This document shows positions 2,875 through 13,294 of a stretch of 64,000 bases of DNA, in pieces (within the stretch, counting starts at the first letter, position 1; each line of letters begins with the position of its first letter). The notes under the pieces are model-generated. The model searched no databases, had not been told where the DNA came from, and saw only the letters and a program-made list of their open reading frames with translations. Source of the DNA: a virus; IMG/VR virus record IMGVR_UViG_3300046665_000305, positions 55,576 to 119,575 of that record. One strand, 5' to 3'. The position numbers and the translations under genes are program-made.

Positions 2875-3208
2875 ACAAGAAATCTTCGACACTATCTACC
2901 TCGGAATGAAATCTCAAGGCTTTCGTCAAAGCACTATAGGCTACGATTGTCGTTACAGAAATAAACGAAGAAAGTTAAAGTGCGTCGGAGGTTGGTTAAT
3001 TCCAGATGAAGTGTATTCGGCTCGAAAAATGGAAGGTTTAACCATTAGGGAACTTGACTTTTTTATGGGAATGGAGCATTTAGATTTCATTGAAGAAGCT
3101 CAAGAGATTCACGATGAATCAATGATGATTGAGGAAATGCGTTGGAGGCTTCAAAAGTTAGCTCAGCGCCACAAATTGGAGATTCCAGATGACACAATTT
3201 TCGAATGA
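2867..3208 (+). CDS. Hypothetical protein, first of a tandem pair
   Basis: A 113-residue protein. N-terminus QEIFDTIYLGMKSQGF, then CRYR, a basic stretch with a Cys, GGWLIPDEVY, and a helical C-terminus. The next gene repeats this order, so the two arose by tandem duplication. Overlaps its copy by 20 bases. Function unknown. Confidence 0.75.
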   Translation: MTKQEIFDTIYLGMKSQGFRQSTIGYDCRYRNKRRKLKCVGGWLIPDEVYSARKMEGLTIRELDFFMGMEHLDFIEEAQEIHDESMMIEEMRWRLQKLAQRHKLEIPDDTIFE

Positions 3209-3765: not shown

Positions 3766-4164
3766 ATGACTATTCCTATTAGTAAAAGATTTCCTTCAGA
3801 CCAGCATTTTGCCGTCGTTCTGTTTGACACGAATATTGGTTGTGATGGCGAGGGATGGTGGAACGGTGATAATGCTGTGAATTATCTTGTCATGACATAT
3901 GAAGAGATCGTTCAGTGGGTAGCAAAAAACAAAGATAGAAAATTTAAAGTTGTCGAAGTTTACCCTATGACGGTTGAGATTCCTGAGCCTGTTGTTATTA
4001 GTACTAAGCCTTATGAAATGCCTCCTCATTTAGTAGAAATGAAGAACGAAGTTCTGGACCAAGCAAGAGAATATGCTAAGTTGCAACGCGAAAGATTGGA
4101 TAGCATTCAAGACCCTGTCATGAAGGCTGCGTTGATCAAAGATTTAAAAAAAGAGGGTTGGTGA
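3766..4164 (+). CDS. Hypothetical protein, 132 aa
   Basis: N-terminal half beta-rich (FAVVLFDTNIG, GEGWWNGDNAVNY), C-terminal half a long charged helix. The stop overlaps the next start by one base. First gene after the double-hairpin intergenic region. No family recognised. Confidence 0.75.
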   Translation: MTIPISKRFPSDQHFAVVLFDTNIGCDGEGWWNGDNAVNYLVMTYEEIVQWVAKNKDRKFKVVEVYPMTVEIPEPVVISTKPYEMPPHLVEMKNEVLDQAREYAKLQRERLDSIQDPVMKAALIKDLKKEGW

Positions 4165-4808: not shown

Positions 4809-4813
4809 TTTAA

Positions 4814-5063
4814 CCAAGAGTAGCTCCAAAGTATGCCTTGTGTCAAAAGGTAGCAGGTAGAGCACCACGACCTGATTTAGTGTAACGATGTGGCAAATCG
4901 TGTTACGACACTAAATAGAATTGGATAGGATACTGCCGCAGAACAGGATTAAGTAGTGGGTCAGATCAACTCATGAAAAAGACTTAGTACCGCGTCAGTA
5001 AAATTGAAAAGGATTGGGTAGAAAACGTGGGGGCTGGTGGTTCGAATCCATTCTCTTGGACCA
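4814..5063 (+). tRNA. tRNA-shaped gene with D-loop and anticodon-loop insertions
   Basis: All stems of a tRNA pair: acceptor CCAAGAG/CTCTTGG, D stem GCTC/GAGC, anticodon stem CCACG (4865-4869)/CGTGG (5026-5030), 5-nt variable loop, T stem GGTGG/CCATT with loop TTCGAAT, then A and an encoded CCA. The anticodon loop is 156 nt instead of 7, and the D loop 33 nt instead of about 8. The insertion starts ACCTGATT, which can pair (with wobbles) with GATTGGGT near its end. It also holds a long hairpin (TTTAGTGT...ACACTAAA). I see no group I intron core. The anticodon cannot be assigned safely; if the loop is the seven 3'-most residues it would read GAA without U33. Confidence 0.75.
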
Positions 5064-5218
5064 GTTTGCCGAAAGGCTACGAGTAACGCCGGTTCAATTC
5101 CGGCTCGCTAATCGAGGTTTGGTAAGGAAAAGTAGGGTTCAAGTCCCTACCGAAGCGGCACATGCCGCAGGACCGGACGGTTCCGGGGATTTGGCAGTCT
5201 GGAAAGACAGACACATTG
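5064..5218 (+). ncRNA. Multi-hairpin spacer RNA with two T-arm-like hairpins
   Basis: Six consecutive stem-loops: GCC-GAAA-GGC (5068-5077), GCCGG-TTCAATT-CCGGC (5088-5104), GTAGGG-TTCAAGT-CCCTAC (5132-5150), GCGGC-ACAT-GCCGC (5155-5168), CCGGA-CGGT-TCCGG (5073+100 to 5086+100, i.e. 5173-5186) and GTCTG-GAAAGA-CAGAC (5197-5212). The second and third have 7-nt TTCRANT-like loops as in tRNA T arms. I find no matching 5' acceptor strands or CCA. They may be parts of further rearranged tRNAs, or a separate structured RNA. Confidence 0.5.
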
Positions 5219-5442
5219 CCGGGGTTAGCTCAGCTGGTAGAGCACTGTGAGCCTGATTCATTTCGACTGGCTTGATCACCGATAGAAGTGAATTGAACCT
5301 GAGATGAGTCGATAACATGAAAGGAATGAAGTAATGAGAGTAATTAACTCAAGAACCGGCCCAAGTAATGTTGGAGATGATTTGAAGGGGATAAGGGGTG
5401 AAACTACAGGTGTCGGGGGTTCGAATCCTTCACCTCGGACCA
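5219..5442 (+). tRNA. tRNA-shaped gene with ~148-nt anticodon-loop insertion
   Basis: Acceptor CCGGGGT/ACCTCGG, D arm GCTC-AGCTGGTA-GAGC (normal), anticodon stem CTGTG (5245-5249)/TACAG (5405-5409), variable GTGTC, T stem GGGGG/CCTTC with loop TTCGAAT, then A and CCA. Between the anticodon stem halves are 155 nt instead of 7. The insertion shares its ends with that of the first gene: CCTGATT at the 5' side and a GAA-GGGGAT-GGGT-GAAA-like 3' side. If the seven 3'-most residues (GTGAAAC) form the loop, the anticodon is GAA (Phe) with U33 and A37 in place. Confidence 0.78.
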
Positions 5443-5469
5443 TTCTTCCTCCATTAATGGAGGGAAGAA
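5443..5469 (+). promoter_or_regulatory. Hairpin over the methyltransferase start
   Basis: TTCTTCC-TCCAT pairs with ATGGA-GGGAAGAA, beginning one base after the CCA of the second tRNA. The proposed ATG (5457) and a GGAGGG stretch lie inside the stem, so it could end or process the tRNA transcript and also mask the start codon. Confidence 0.55.
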
Positions 5470-5951
5470 CTAATTTACAAGCAACGAACACGCCGTCATG
5501 GCTCGCCGCCGATATGGCAGCGCTTGCGGATATCATAATTCATGACAGGGTACTTGAACCTAGCGCTGGAACTGGCGCTATCGTGGAAGCTGTTAGTGTC
5601 TACGCTCAAAACATCACGGCGATAGAGCTTAACAAGCCTATGTTCGCTGAATTGGTGGAATCATATCCGTCTGTGGAATGTCTGAACACCAATTTCCTGA
5701 GATATAGTTTTGACAATCTGTTCGACCGCGTCGTCATGAATCCGCCGCACAAGAATTGTGTCGAGCATGTCAGACATGCGGCGGACCAACTTGCAGAAGG
5801 TGGCCGTCTCGTCGCCCTGCTCCATGCAACTTACTGTGACGAAATTTGTAAGATTCTCCCTGATGTAAGATTTTATCATTTACCTCGCGAAACGTTTGTG
5901 ATAGGAGATAACTACATCGAAGCAGTTATCGCGGTTTGGGACAAAATTTAA
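5457..5951 (+). CDS. SAM-dependent N6-adenine-type methyltransferase
   Basis: A 164-residue Rossmann methyltransferase. Motif I is VLEPSAGTGAI (residues 32-42), an acidic residue ends the next strand (AIELN), and motif IV is NPPH (95-98), the NPP[YFH] loop that holds the target amino group. The N-terminal TPSWLAADMA helix matches small phage adenine methyltransferases. Target (DNA or RNA) cannot be told. Upstream in-frame codons overlap the tRNA and are excluded. No clear Shine-Dalgarno; the start lies in a hairpin. Confidence 0.8.
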   Translation: MEGRTNLQATNTPSWLAADMAALADIIIHDRVLEPSAGTGAIVEAVSVYAQNITAIELNKPMFAELVESYPSVECLNTNFLRYSFDNLFDRVVMNPPHKNCVEHVRHAADQLAEGGRLVALLHATYCDEICKILPDVRFYHLPRETFVIGDNYIEAVIAVWDKI

Positions 5952-6139: not shown

Positions 6140-6609
6140 AAATCATCTGGAACCGTGCCGGTGGCCTTCCCGAATGTCCATATTTCCGGCTATGGGCCGT
6201 CCTGTTCAAGAAGTGGAGCGTTAGGCTTCACCAATGGCTCGGAGATGACGATCACCGTCATCCACACAATCATCCTTATTGGTTCGTTACTGTCGTGCTA
6301 CGAGGCGGCTATGACGATGTGACATACGAAACGATTGACAACGCTGTTCTGGTAAAAGACGTTGAACGGATGCGGGCCGGAATGATTCGGTTTAGGCCAG
6401 CCGATCACATGCATTCGGTTCAAAACGTCAGACCTAATACGTGGACCTTTCTCATCACTGGTGCTCCAATGTTTCGTTGGGGATTCCTTGTCAAGGGGAA
6501 AATCATTAAGAGAGATAAATATTTCGCGGTGCACGGTCATCATCCTTGCGATGGAACGGGCGAGGGAGTTAGGCTGAAGCCGGATGGGACAAGGATTAGT
6601 GATGCTTAA
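6136..6609 (+). CDS. Cupin-like metal-binding protein
   Basis: A 157-residue protein with a His-rich motif HRHPHNHPYW (residues ~39-48), an expected first cupin metal site, and HMHSV further on as the second. Beta-rich throughout with a late HGHHP. Cupins bind a metal in a beta-barrel and include isomerases, dioxygenases and pure binding proteins; substrate unknown here. Confidence 0.7.
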   Translation: MKIIWNRAGGLPECPYFRLWAVLFKKWSVRLHQWLGDDDHRHPHNHPYWFVTVVLRGGYDDVTYETIDNAVLVKDVERMRAGMIRFRPADHMHSVQNVRPNTWTFLITGAPMFRWGFLVKGKIIKRDKYFAVHGHHPCDGTGEGVRLKPDGTRISDA

Positions 6610-12052: not shown

Positions 12053-12451
12053 ATGACAGAATCATCTTATCTTCAGCTTGAAGGCTATTACCGAGACAGA
12101 CATAAAGGTGGCCATTCGTGGCAAGTGTGGGGCGATAGCACTGAAAGGCTATCTTCCGTCATTTCTAGCGATCTTGAACAGGCTAAGAAGTGGGCCGTGG
12201 AGCTAGCCGACAGCGCTAGGGCTTGGGAAGGTATGAAATTCAAGGTACGCATTCTGCGCATAACCGGCACTACCAAAGAGGTTGTGTTCAAGTATAGCGA
12301 AAAATCTTGTTACGAAGTCAGTTTCGGCAAGAAAAATTCCAAAGAGGCTTTGGATAGGCTTCGATATGATTTTGATGGTGATGCGGATGACGCTGTTAAG
12401 AGCTTGAAAGATTTGGGTTATTGGGTCAAGACTAAGAAAGTTAAACTTTGA
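12053..12451 (+). CDS. Hypothetical protein, 132 aa
   Basis: N-terminal strand-helix unit (HSWQVWGDSTERLSS...AKKWAVELADS) and a second one near 95-130. The start is one base after the previous stop. No family recognised. Confidence 0.7.
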   Translation: MTESSYLQLEGYYRDRHKGGHSWQVWGDSTERLSSVISSDLEQAKKWAVELADSARAWEGMKFKVRILRITGTTKEVVFKYSEKSCYEVSFGKKNSKEALDRLRYDFDGDADDAVKSLKDLGYWVKTKKVKL

Positions 12452-12452
12452 A

Positions 12453-12605
12453 ATGGTCCAGTTAGAATACTGGAACGGCACGGCTTGGGTATTGAAGCCG
12501 TTTGAAATTTTTGATGTACGAAGAACTTCAAACGGTGAATGGTTGTATTGTCGCAACGTCGAGCTTCAACGTTTTGTAAAGATAAAGAGGGAGAATGTGA
12601 AGTGA
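12453..12605 (+). CDS. Hypothetical protein, 50 aa
   Basis: MVQLEYWNGTAWVLKPF...ENVK: a short beta-rich, C-terminally basic frame tightly placed between two genes and overlapping the next start (AAGTGA). No family recognised. Confidence 0.65.
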   Translation: MVQLEYWNGTAWVLKPFEIFDVRRTSNGEWLYCRNVELQRFVKIKRENVK

Positions 12606-12808
12606 GAACATGTGACTGTTTCAGCTGCGGCACGCGGCTTAAAGATATTGGAGAAGAAGGGAAATATCTTCAGCCCATTGATGGACTTGAATTTACTACC
12701 TCTGGCCATTACGGTTCTACTTATTTCGATCCATGTGACGGGACAAAGTTGGCCATCGTGATTTGCGACACCTGTTTGAGAGAGTATTTTGGCGATGCTG
12801 AGACTTGA
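12602..12808 (+). CDS. Two-CxxC zinc-binding phage protein
   Basis: A 68-residue protein from a GTG with AAAGAGGGAGAA upstream. CDCFSCG at the start and CDTCL near the end give the four Cys of a zinc ribbon around a YGSxxFD segment. I recall this small family from phages; role unknown. Confidence 0.7.
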   Translation: MRTCDCFSCGTRLKDIGEEGKYLQPIDGLEFTTSGHYGSTYFDPCDGTKLAIVICDTCLREYFGDAET

Positions 12809-12977
12809 ACTTCAATGGGAGAGGCGAGGGATATGGTATGGCGTAATTGAAGGAACCGGGTTCAGAGGAATGTCTGCGTATCACCAAAAAGCTATGGACC
12901 ACTTACGAGATACGCCGGAACGGTATTATTATGTGAATGAGAAAATTAGATTTTGTTTAGCCGACAGGAGGTGGTGA
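12795..12977 (+). CDS. Hypothetical protein, 60 aa
   Basis: MLRLELQWERRGIWYGVIEG, basic and aromatic. The start overlaps the zinc-ribbon gene and the stop overlaps the next ATG by one base. No family recognised. Confidence 0.65.
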   Translation: MLRLELQWERRGIWYGVIEGTGFRGMSAYHQKAMDHLRDTPERYYYVNEKIRFCLADRRW

Positions 12978-13294
12978 TGCAGAAGCTGACGTTTGAAAAA
13001 TTTCTGGTCAGCCCTTTGAATAATTCTTGGATCAAGGAACCGGGACTTGAAATATATGTCCGCAAAACTAAGAGGCTAGATGGAATACAAGAGACTATCG
13101 ATCTAGCTAACATGAATGCGGCACGTCCCGGCAAGGGGGCTTTGACCAGATTTTTGGATCGGTACGAGCCGGATCACATCTTCTATCTCGAAAATGTATT
13201 TGAAACTAGGTTGAAAGAATATTATGAGCGGCGCGGCTATGTCACAATTAATGATATGTATCCGTGGTGCATGCTAAAAGGGAGAGGTGATTGA
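12977..13294 (+). CDS. Possible GNAT-like acetyltransferase, 105 aa
   Basis: GGAGGTGGTG precedes the ATG. The segment IDLANMNAARPGKGALTRFLDRYEP followed by ENVFETRLKEYYERRGYV resembles the acetyl-CoA-binding half of small phage GNAT proteins (PGKGxL loop, then YYERRGY). Short for a full GNAT fold, so this is tentative. Confidence 0.55.
   Translation: MQKLTFEKFLVSPLNNSWIKEPGLEIYVRKTKRLDGIQETIDLANMNAARPGKGALTRFLDRYEPDHIFYLENVFETRLKEYYERRGYVTINDMYPWCMLKGRGD

Follow-up and report, generated by a model that had tools for sequence, protein, structure and literature searches.

The DNA analysed here (the window, 64,000 nucleotides) comprises bases 55,576-119,575 of the 119,575-bp virus record IMGVR_UViG_3300046665_000305, from a phage whose large terminase is nearest to those of Sphingobium phage Lacusarx, Roseobacter phage DSS3P8 and the phiCbK-like Caulobacter phages. 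Two tRNA-like RNAs lie in tandem in the window, each with a long insertion between the halves of its anticodon stem, and the reading frame of a methyltransferase begins within the second (Table 1).

Table 1. Features of the two tRNA-like RNAs and the overlapping gene, in window positions.
Feature	Position	Strand	Remarks
tRNA-like RNA 1, whole	4814..5063	+	acceptor stem 4814-4820/5053-5059, 7/7 pairs; ACCA 5060-5063
RNA 1 D arm	4823..4863	+	33-nt loop holding an extra hairpin, outer stem GCTC...GAGC
RNA 1 insertion	4870..5025	+	156 nt between anticodon-stem halves
RNA 1 would-be anticodon loop	5019..5025		TAGAAAA, with GAA; last 7 nt of the insertion
Spacer between RNA 1 and RNA 2	5064..5218	+	two mini hairpins resembling an acceptor plus T arm, ~5080-5107 and ~5118-5154
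tRNA-like RNA 2, whole	5219..5442	+	acceptor stem 5219-5225/5432-5438; ACCA 5439-5442
RNA 2 insertion	5250..5404	+	155 nt between anticodon-stem halves
RNA 2 would-be anticodon loop	5398..5404		GTGAAAC, with GAA; last 7 nt of the insertion
Methyltransferase reading frame	5334..5951	+	start (ATG 5334, AAGGA upstream) within RNA 2 insertion; crosses tRNA 3' half

Both RNAs had been proposed in an earlier note on this DNA. The coordinates and insertion lengths it gave, with 7-bp acceptor and 5-bp anticodon stems, are as described; its 5-nt variable loops, TTCGAAT T loops, encoded CCA and enlarged RNA 1 D loop were borne out, and the common insertion ends, said to pair as an extension of the anticodon stem, do form a helix of ~4 bp. 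Neither RNA is called by plain ARAGORN or by Rfam. Once introns are allowed, a check that the note had proposed, ARAGORN calls RNA 2 as tRNA-Phe(gaa). The extra hairpin in the D loop of RNA 1 is identical in the L113 copy (L and G numbers are our own handles), while the D-loop sequence of the L236 copy differs but also forms a hairpin there (CACCAT/ATGGTG). The spacer holds a weak, sub-threshold match to mascRNA at 5116-5156. A similar mini hairpin lies between the RNA pair in L236/L095, and none was seen in L113.

The window RNAs belong to a previously unannotated RNA family, the architecture of which recurs in other phages and is not a product of chance. The family has 18 members from 11 different phages: CcrColossus, CcrPW, Bajun, Rhizobium phage RHph_Y1_11, the phage of the window and six from IMG/VR. 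Five of these phages carry two copies each, and 152-207 nt separate the anticodon-stem halves. The entry point to the family was a weak DNA match of the window T arm, which led to unannotated gaps of ~670-700 nt in CcrColossus, CcrPW and Brevundimonas phage Bajun; in each gap two copies stand in tandem. Members from IMG/VR phages were added by pattern scans combined with a filter on the acceptor and D arm, and the isolate RHph_Y1_11 by a protein search; the scans for RNA patterns were limited to tRNA-like 3' halves with GAAR, so that members with other anticodons would escape them. For L290, the 3' half was seen first, and the flank that was then fetched supplied the 5' half that had been predicted, its side of the acceptor stem pairing perfectly. 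Among 84,980 bacterial and archaeal genomes, scanned for insertions of ~142-172 nt only, the sole match was a false positive. We found no description of these RNAs in the literature, and according to the CcrColossus genome paper Rfam gave no functional RNAs besides tRNAs (PMC3556154). The presence of the family in other phages, its constant methyltransferase neighbor and the location of the RNA 2 3' half inside the methyltransferase frame are additions to the earlier note.

Other tRNA-like genes with insertions were also encountered. L112 (IMGVR 3300037249_000541) carries three on the minus strand (6466-6584, 4811-4926 and 3821-3945), with anticodon-arm insertions of ~46-56 nt that share a TTACTYACAARAAC-like stretch; these represent a different insertion family, and plain ARAGORN misses all three. 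The tRNA-like gene of L308 (plus strand, ~2921-3056) also has C1:G72; its insertion lies in the anticodon region, its acceptor is CAGCGAG/CTCGCTG, and no methyltransferase is nearby.

Pairing statistics were computed on 13 non-redundant RNAs. The acceptor stem is paired at 7/7 positions in all 13 (91/91 cells), and a single position shows as many as five pair types; a member's own 5' and 3' halves pair at 100%, vs 59% when halves are swapped between members, and 0/20,000 permutations did as well. The anticodon stem gives 95% for own halves vs 63% for swapped ones; for the basal helix of the insertion, the strands of which were assigned by eye, the values are 94% vs 57%. In tandem loci the best acceptor-stem partner of each 5' half is its own 3' half, so the halves do not come from different RNAs, a possibility that the earlier note had named as one that would refute its reading. 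No member departs from C1:G72, A73 and CCA. The insertion sits between tRNA positions 31 and 32, leaving a whole 7-nt loop of the form N-N-GAA-R-N on its 3' side; the covarying basal helix of ~4 bp, present in most members, is flanked by this 7-nt stretch on the 3' side and by 1-2 nt on the 5' side, i.e., by bulges of sizes other than 3 nt.

Within the insertion, compensatory changes are also found between close pairs of members. An AGTA-hairpin-GAA element, which in our reading of the sequence resembles a loop E motif, is common to the window-type members and L290. Building a covariance model from the window insertions had been suggested by the earlier note; the model of the window-type insertion (R1) did recover closely related members and, in L290, a piece of 36 nt, and reached nothing further, so we do not claim a single fold for all insertions. 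When folded as single sequences against shuffles, window RNA 2 (z 0.4) and CcrColossus RNA 1 (z 0.0) are not more stable, and window RNA 1 is modestly more stable (z -2.1).

The body of these RNAs derives from tRNA-Phe. In silico deletion of the insertion with its last 7 nt kept yields a tRNA-Phe(gaa) call by ARAGORN for 17 of the 18 members, whereas keeping the first 7 nt instead gives mostly unrelated anticodons. Several features of a functional tRNA-Phe are present, such as the acceptor, D and T arms, CCA and the GAA anticodon, and all 18 members keep the 7-nt loop, with its GAA and the purine at position 37; 10 of them were found without the GAA requirement. Other features fail: U33 is present in 12/18 and lost in 6/18, and the anticodon loop is interrupted in every member. 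Compared with ordinary phage tRNA-Phe(GAA), the family is alike in the D arm, the GTGTC-type variable loop, the T arm and the GAA loop, but differs by the insertion, the frequent loss of U33 and a C1:G72 pair in 18/18 members, vs G1:C72 in 6/6 ordinary tRNA-Phe examined from these phages and relatives; uninterrupted tRNA-Phe with C1:G72 do exist in other phages. Ordinary tRNA-Phe genes also occur in three carrier genomes (L095, L290 and L321), which together with the loss of U33 makes a plain decoding tRNA a poor fit. CcrColossus (28 tRNAs), Bajun (27) and the L298 phage (23) have no other tRNA-Phe.

Downstream of every locus lies a gene for a small N6-adenine-type methyltransferase, directly adjoining except in L089, where an HNH endonuclease sits between the RNA and the enzyme. 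The protein is of a small Rossmann type with a LEPSAG motif and without a target-recognition domain, and its structural neighbors are the TaqI catalytic domain, TrmN and KsgA/Erm. The RNA pattern alone led to L262/277/298, L321, L290 and the D-loop variant L231, and all of these still have the methyltransferase adjoining; ordinary tRNA-Phe genes that meet the same RNA pattern have this neighbor in 0/41 cases. Among 12 related alphaproteobacterial phages, enzyme and RNA occur together in 3/3 and are absent together in 9/9. In several phages the methyltransferase is unfused and has its own ribosome-binding site (the CcrColossus, Bajun and L290 genes), and L321 has a hairpin and T run right behind CCA, with separate promoter-like sites for RNA and enzyme. 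In the L119, L298, L321 and L089 enzymes motif IV reads CPP, not NPP; to judge from this motif, catalysis may differ or be lost in that branch. The L231 gene (reverse strand, ~5301-5449) is tRNA-Phe-like with an intact GAA loop and a ~78-nt D loop holding two hairpins; a related methyltransferase stands directly behind it, with an open frame through the tRNA 3' half.

A downstream frame crosses the tRNA 3' half in seven members, window RNA 2 among them. The frame is that of the methyltransferase in the window, L113, L095, L119, L298 and RHph_Y1_11; in the last, the annotated start lies just ahead of the tRNA, so that the entire RNA falls within the frame. In L089 (reverse strand, 12441-13183) it is the HNH endonuclease frame that starts inside the insertion. 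Between the window and L113, 7/10 differences in the overlap stretch are at third codon positions and 0 at first, which fits translation of the overlap, although the sample is small. The RNA-encoded tail of the methyltransferase is predicted by AlphaFold to be disordered, the folded domain of the window enzyme beginning near residue 45. Given this prediction, selection on the acceptor and T stems probably acts on the shape of the RNA rather than on the peptide; frames cross the RNA while the tail they encode is disordered, which protein function alone would leave unexplained.

These RNAs match no Rfam family, group I included. A search of 10 genomes with the group I core model (RF00028) gave none of the split RNAs a match at E<=1, while a group I-like element of the L095 genome (G002:C1:20203-20396), the positive control, scored 41.7 bits, below the Rfam cut-off; the earlier note's failure to recognize a group I core thus holds under a covariance-model search with a control from within these genomes. 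A group I intron was rejected on this ground and because a group I 5' exon ends in a U that pairs with G, whereas here its end would fall in the anticodon stem, where the last letter is usually G and there is no consistent U. Group I tRNA introns, such as those of Anabaena tRNA-Leu and Azoarcus tRNA-Ile, are alike in their anticodon-arm position and in the size of the larger members (~200 nt); the family differs in the lack of a model match, the insertion at 31/32 and smaller members of 145-149 nt. Similar to tmRNA, these RNAs have tRNA-like ends and a large domain replacing the anticodon loop, but they have a full D stem, no G3:U70 rule and no recognized tag frame, the open frame entering the methyltransferase instead; tmRNA was rejected, as its Rfam model reached no more than 10/84 bits, in L002, and matched nowhere else, and ARAGORN finds no tmRNA. 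YrlA and the tRNA-like Y RNAs (RF02553) share tRNA-like arms in a non-tRNA RNA. The single YrlA match (25.3/69 bits) straddles the point where two tandem RNAs meet, a result that any two tRNAs in tandem could produce, and a Y RNA was likewise rejected. The protein-spliced bulge-helix-bulge introns of archaea and eukaryotes resemble the family in having asymmetric bulges around a ~4-bp helix beside the anticodon stem; the family differs in the 7-nt 3' bulge, the position at 31/32, the length of 145-200 nt and its location in phages. Bacteria are not known to have a tRNA splicing endonuclease.

On the sequence evidence we tentatively favor, as the leading reading though at less than even odds, an unspliced RNA on a tRNA scaffold that would act with, or regulate, the adjoining methyltransferase, ahead of a new class of intron and of a purely cis-acting leader. 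Each gene would give rise to a composite RNA, with a tRNA-Phe-derived body (acceptor, D arm, T arm, CCA) and a structured domain of ~145-200 nt grafted onto the anticodon stem, and the unspliced RNA would be a partner or substrate of the enzyme encoded behind it. In members whose methyltransferase frame begins within the RNA, that RNA would in addition set the amount of enzyme, since tRNA-type folding or processing and translation through the 3' half would be mutually exclusive. We infer the absence of splicing, the contact between enzyme and RNA and the regulatory coupling from the covarying tRNA body, the methyltransferase in every member, the frames that cross the RNA, the paired copies in five phages, the L321 hairpin and promoter-like sites, the loss of U33, the C1:G72 pair and the ordinary tRNA-Phe in three carriers. 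That the enzyme, having no target-recognition domain, takes the tRNA-shaped RNA as its specificity subunit and is thereby RNA-directed seems improbable.

The main rival, rather unlikely in our estimate, is a new class of tRNA intron, in which a ribozyme or a protein-based process would remove the insertion, with the exons joined into tRNA-Phe(GAA). The insertion lies exactly at the 31/32 boundary, its deletion restores a recognizable tRNA-Phe, and the anticodon stems covary. Outward from the anticodon stem come a 3'-strand bulge and the ~4-bp helix, followed in several members by a bulge on the 5' strand, an order reminiscent of a relaxed bulge-helix-bulge site. Genes for RtcB or a ligase-family (PF09414) protein occur in many carriers (the genomes concerned are CcrColossus, Bajun, L290, Lacusarx, G000 and others), although RHph_Y1_11 has neither RtcB nor RNA_ligase. 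The intact GAA loop with its purine 37 is simpler to explain under an intron and weakens the unspliced reading, as do CcrColossus, Bajun and the L298 phage, which a spliced product could serve. Against an intron stand the lack of a match to group I or other Rfam models, the lost U33 and a first pair unlike that of these phages' ordinary tRNA-Phe, the presence of those ordinary genes in L095, L290 and L321, a reading frame that spans the supposed 3' splice site, and L231, where the extra sequence is found in the D loop and yet the adjoining gene is the same.

Less likely again is a tRNA-like leader that acts only in cis on the methyltransferase mRNA, for instance through cleavage by RNase P and a 3' tRNA nuclease or through binding of the enzyme. 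The promoter-proximal location, the start codon and ribosome-binding site within the insertion and the frame through the tRNA 3' half would suit it; the separate ribosome-binding sites in CcrColossus, Bajun and L290 do not, and the tandem copies in five phages, together with the L321 hairpin, T run and second promoter-like site between RNA and gene, suggest that the RNA has a role of its own. The unfused enzymes with their own ribosome-binding sites also weaken the unspliced scaffold reading. The linkage may reflect co-transcription, not physical partnership. Of the options raised in the earlier note, a new intron class and a tRNA mimic both stand, but its decoy for tRNA-cutting defense nucleases appears very improbable: the tRNA body with GAA is kept, yet the anticodon loop is broken open by the insertion, U33 is not conserved, and a decoy would not account for the link to the methyltransferase. 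Degraded tRNA genes, or tRNA pieces juxtaposed by chance, would account for the standard predictors missing these genes, but are refuted by the perfect covarying acceptor stems in 13/13 non-redundant members and by synteny across phages, leaving this reading a negligible probability.

The genes of this family escape standard annotation tools, and their carriers include the cultured phages CcrColossus, CcrPW, Bajun and RHph_Y1_11. If the insertion is an intron, bacterial viruses would hold a class of tRNA introns beyond those known. If it is not, a tRNA would have become a large structured RNA that is linked to a methyltransferase, with half a tRNA used as coding sequence.
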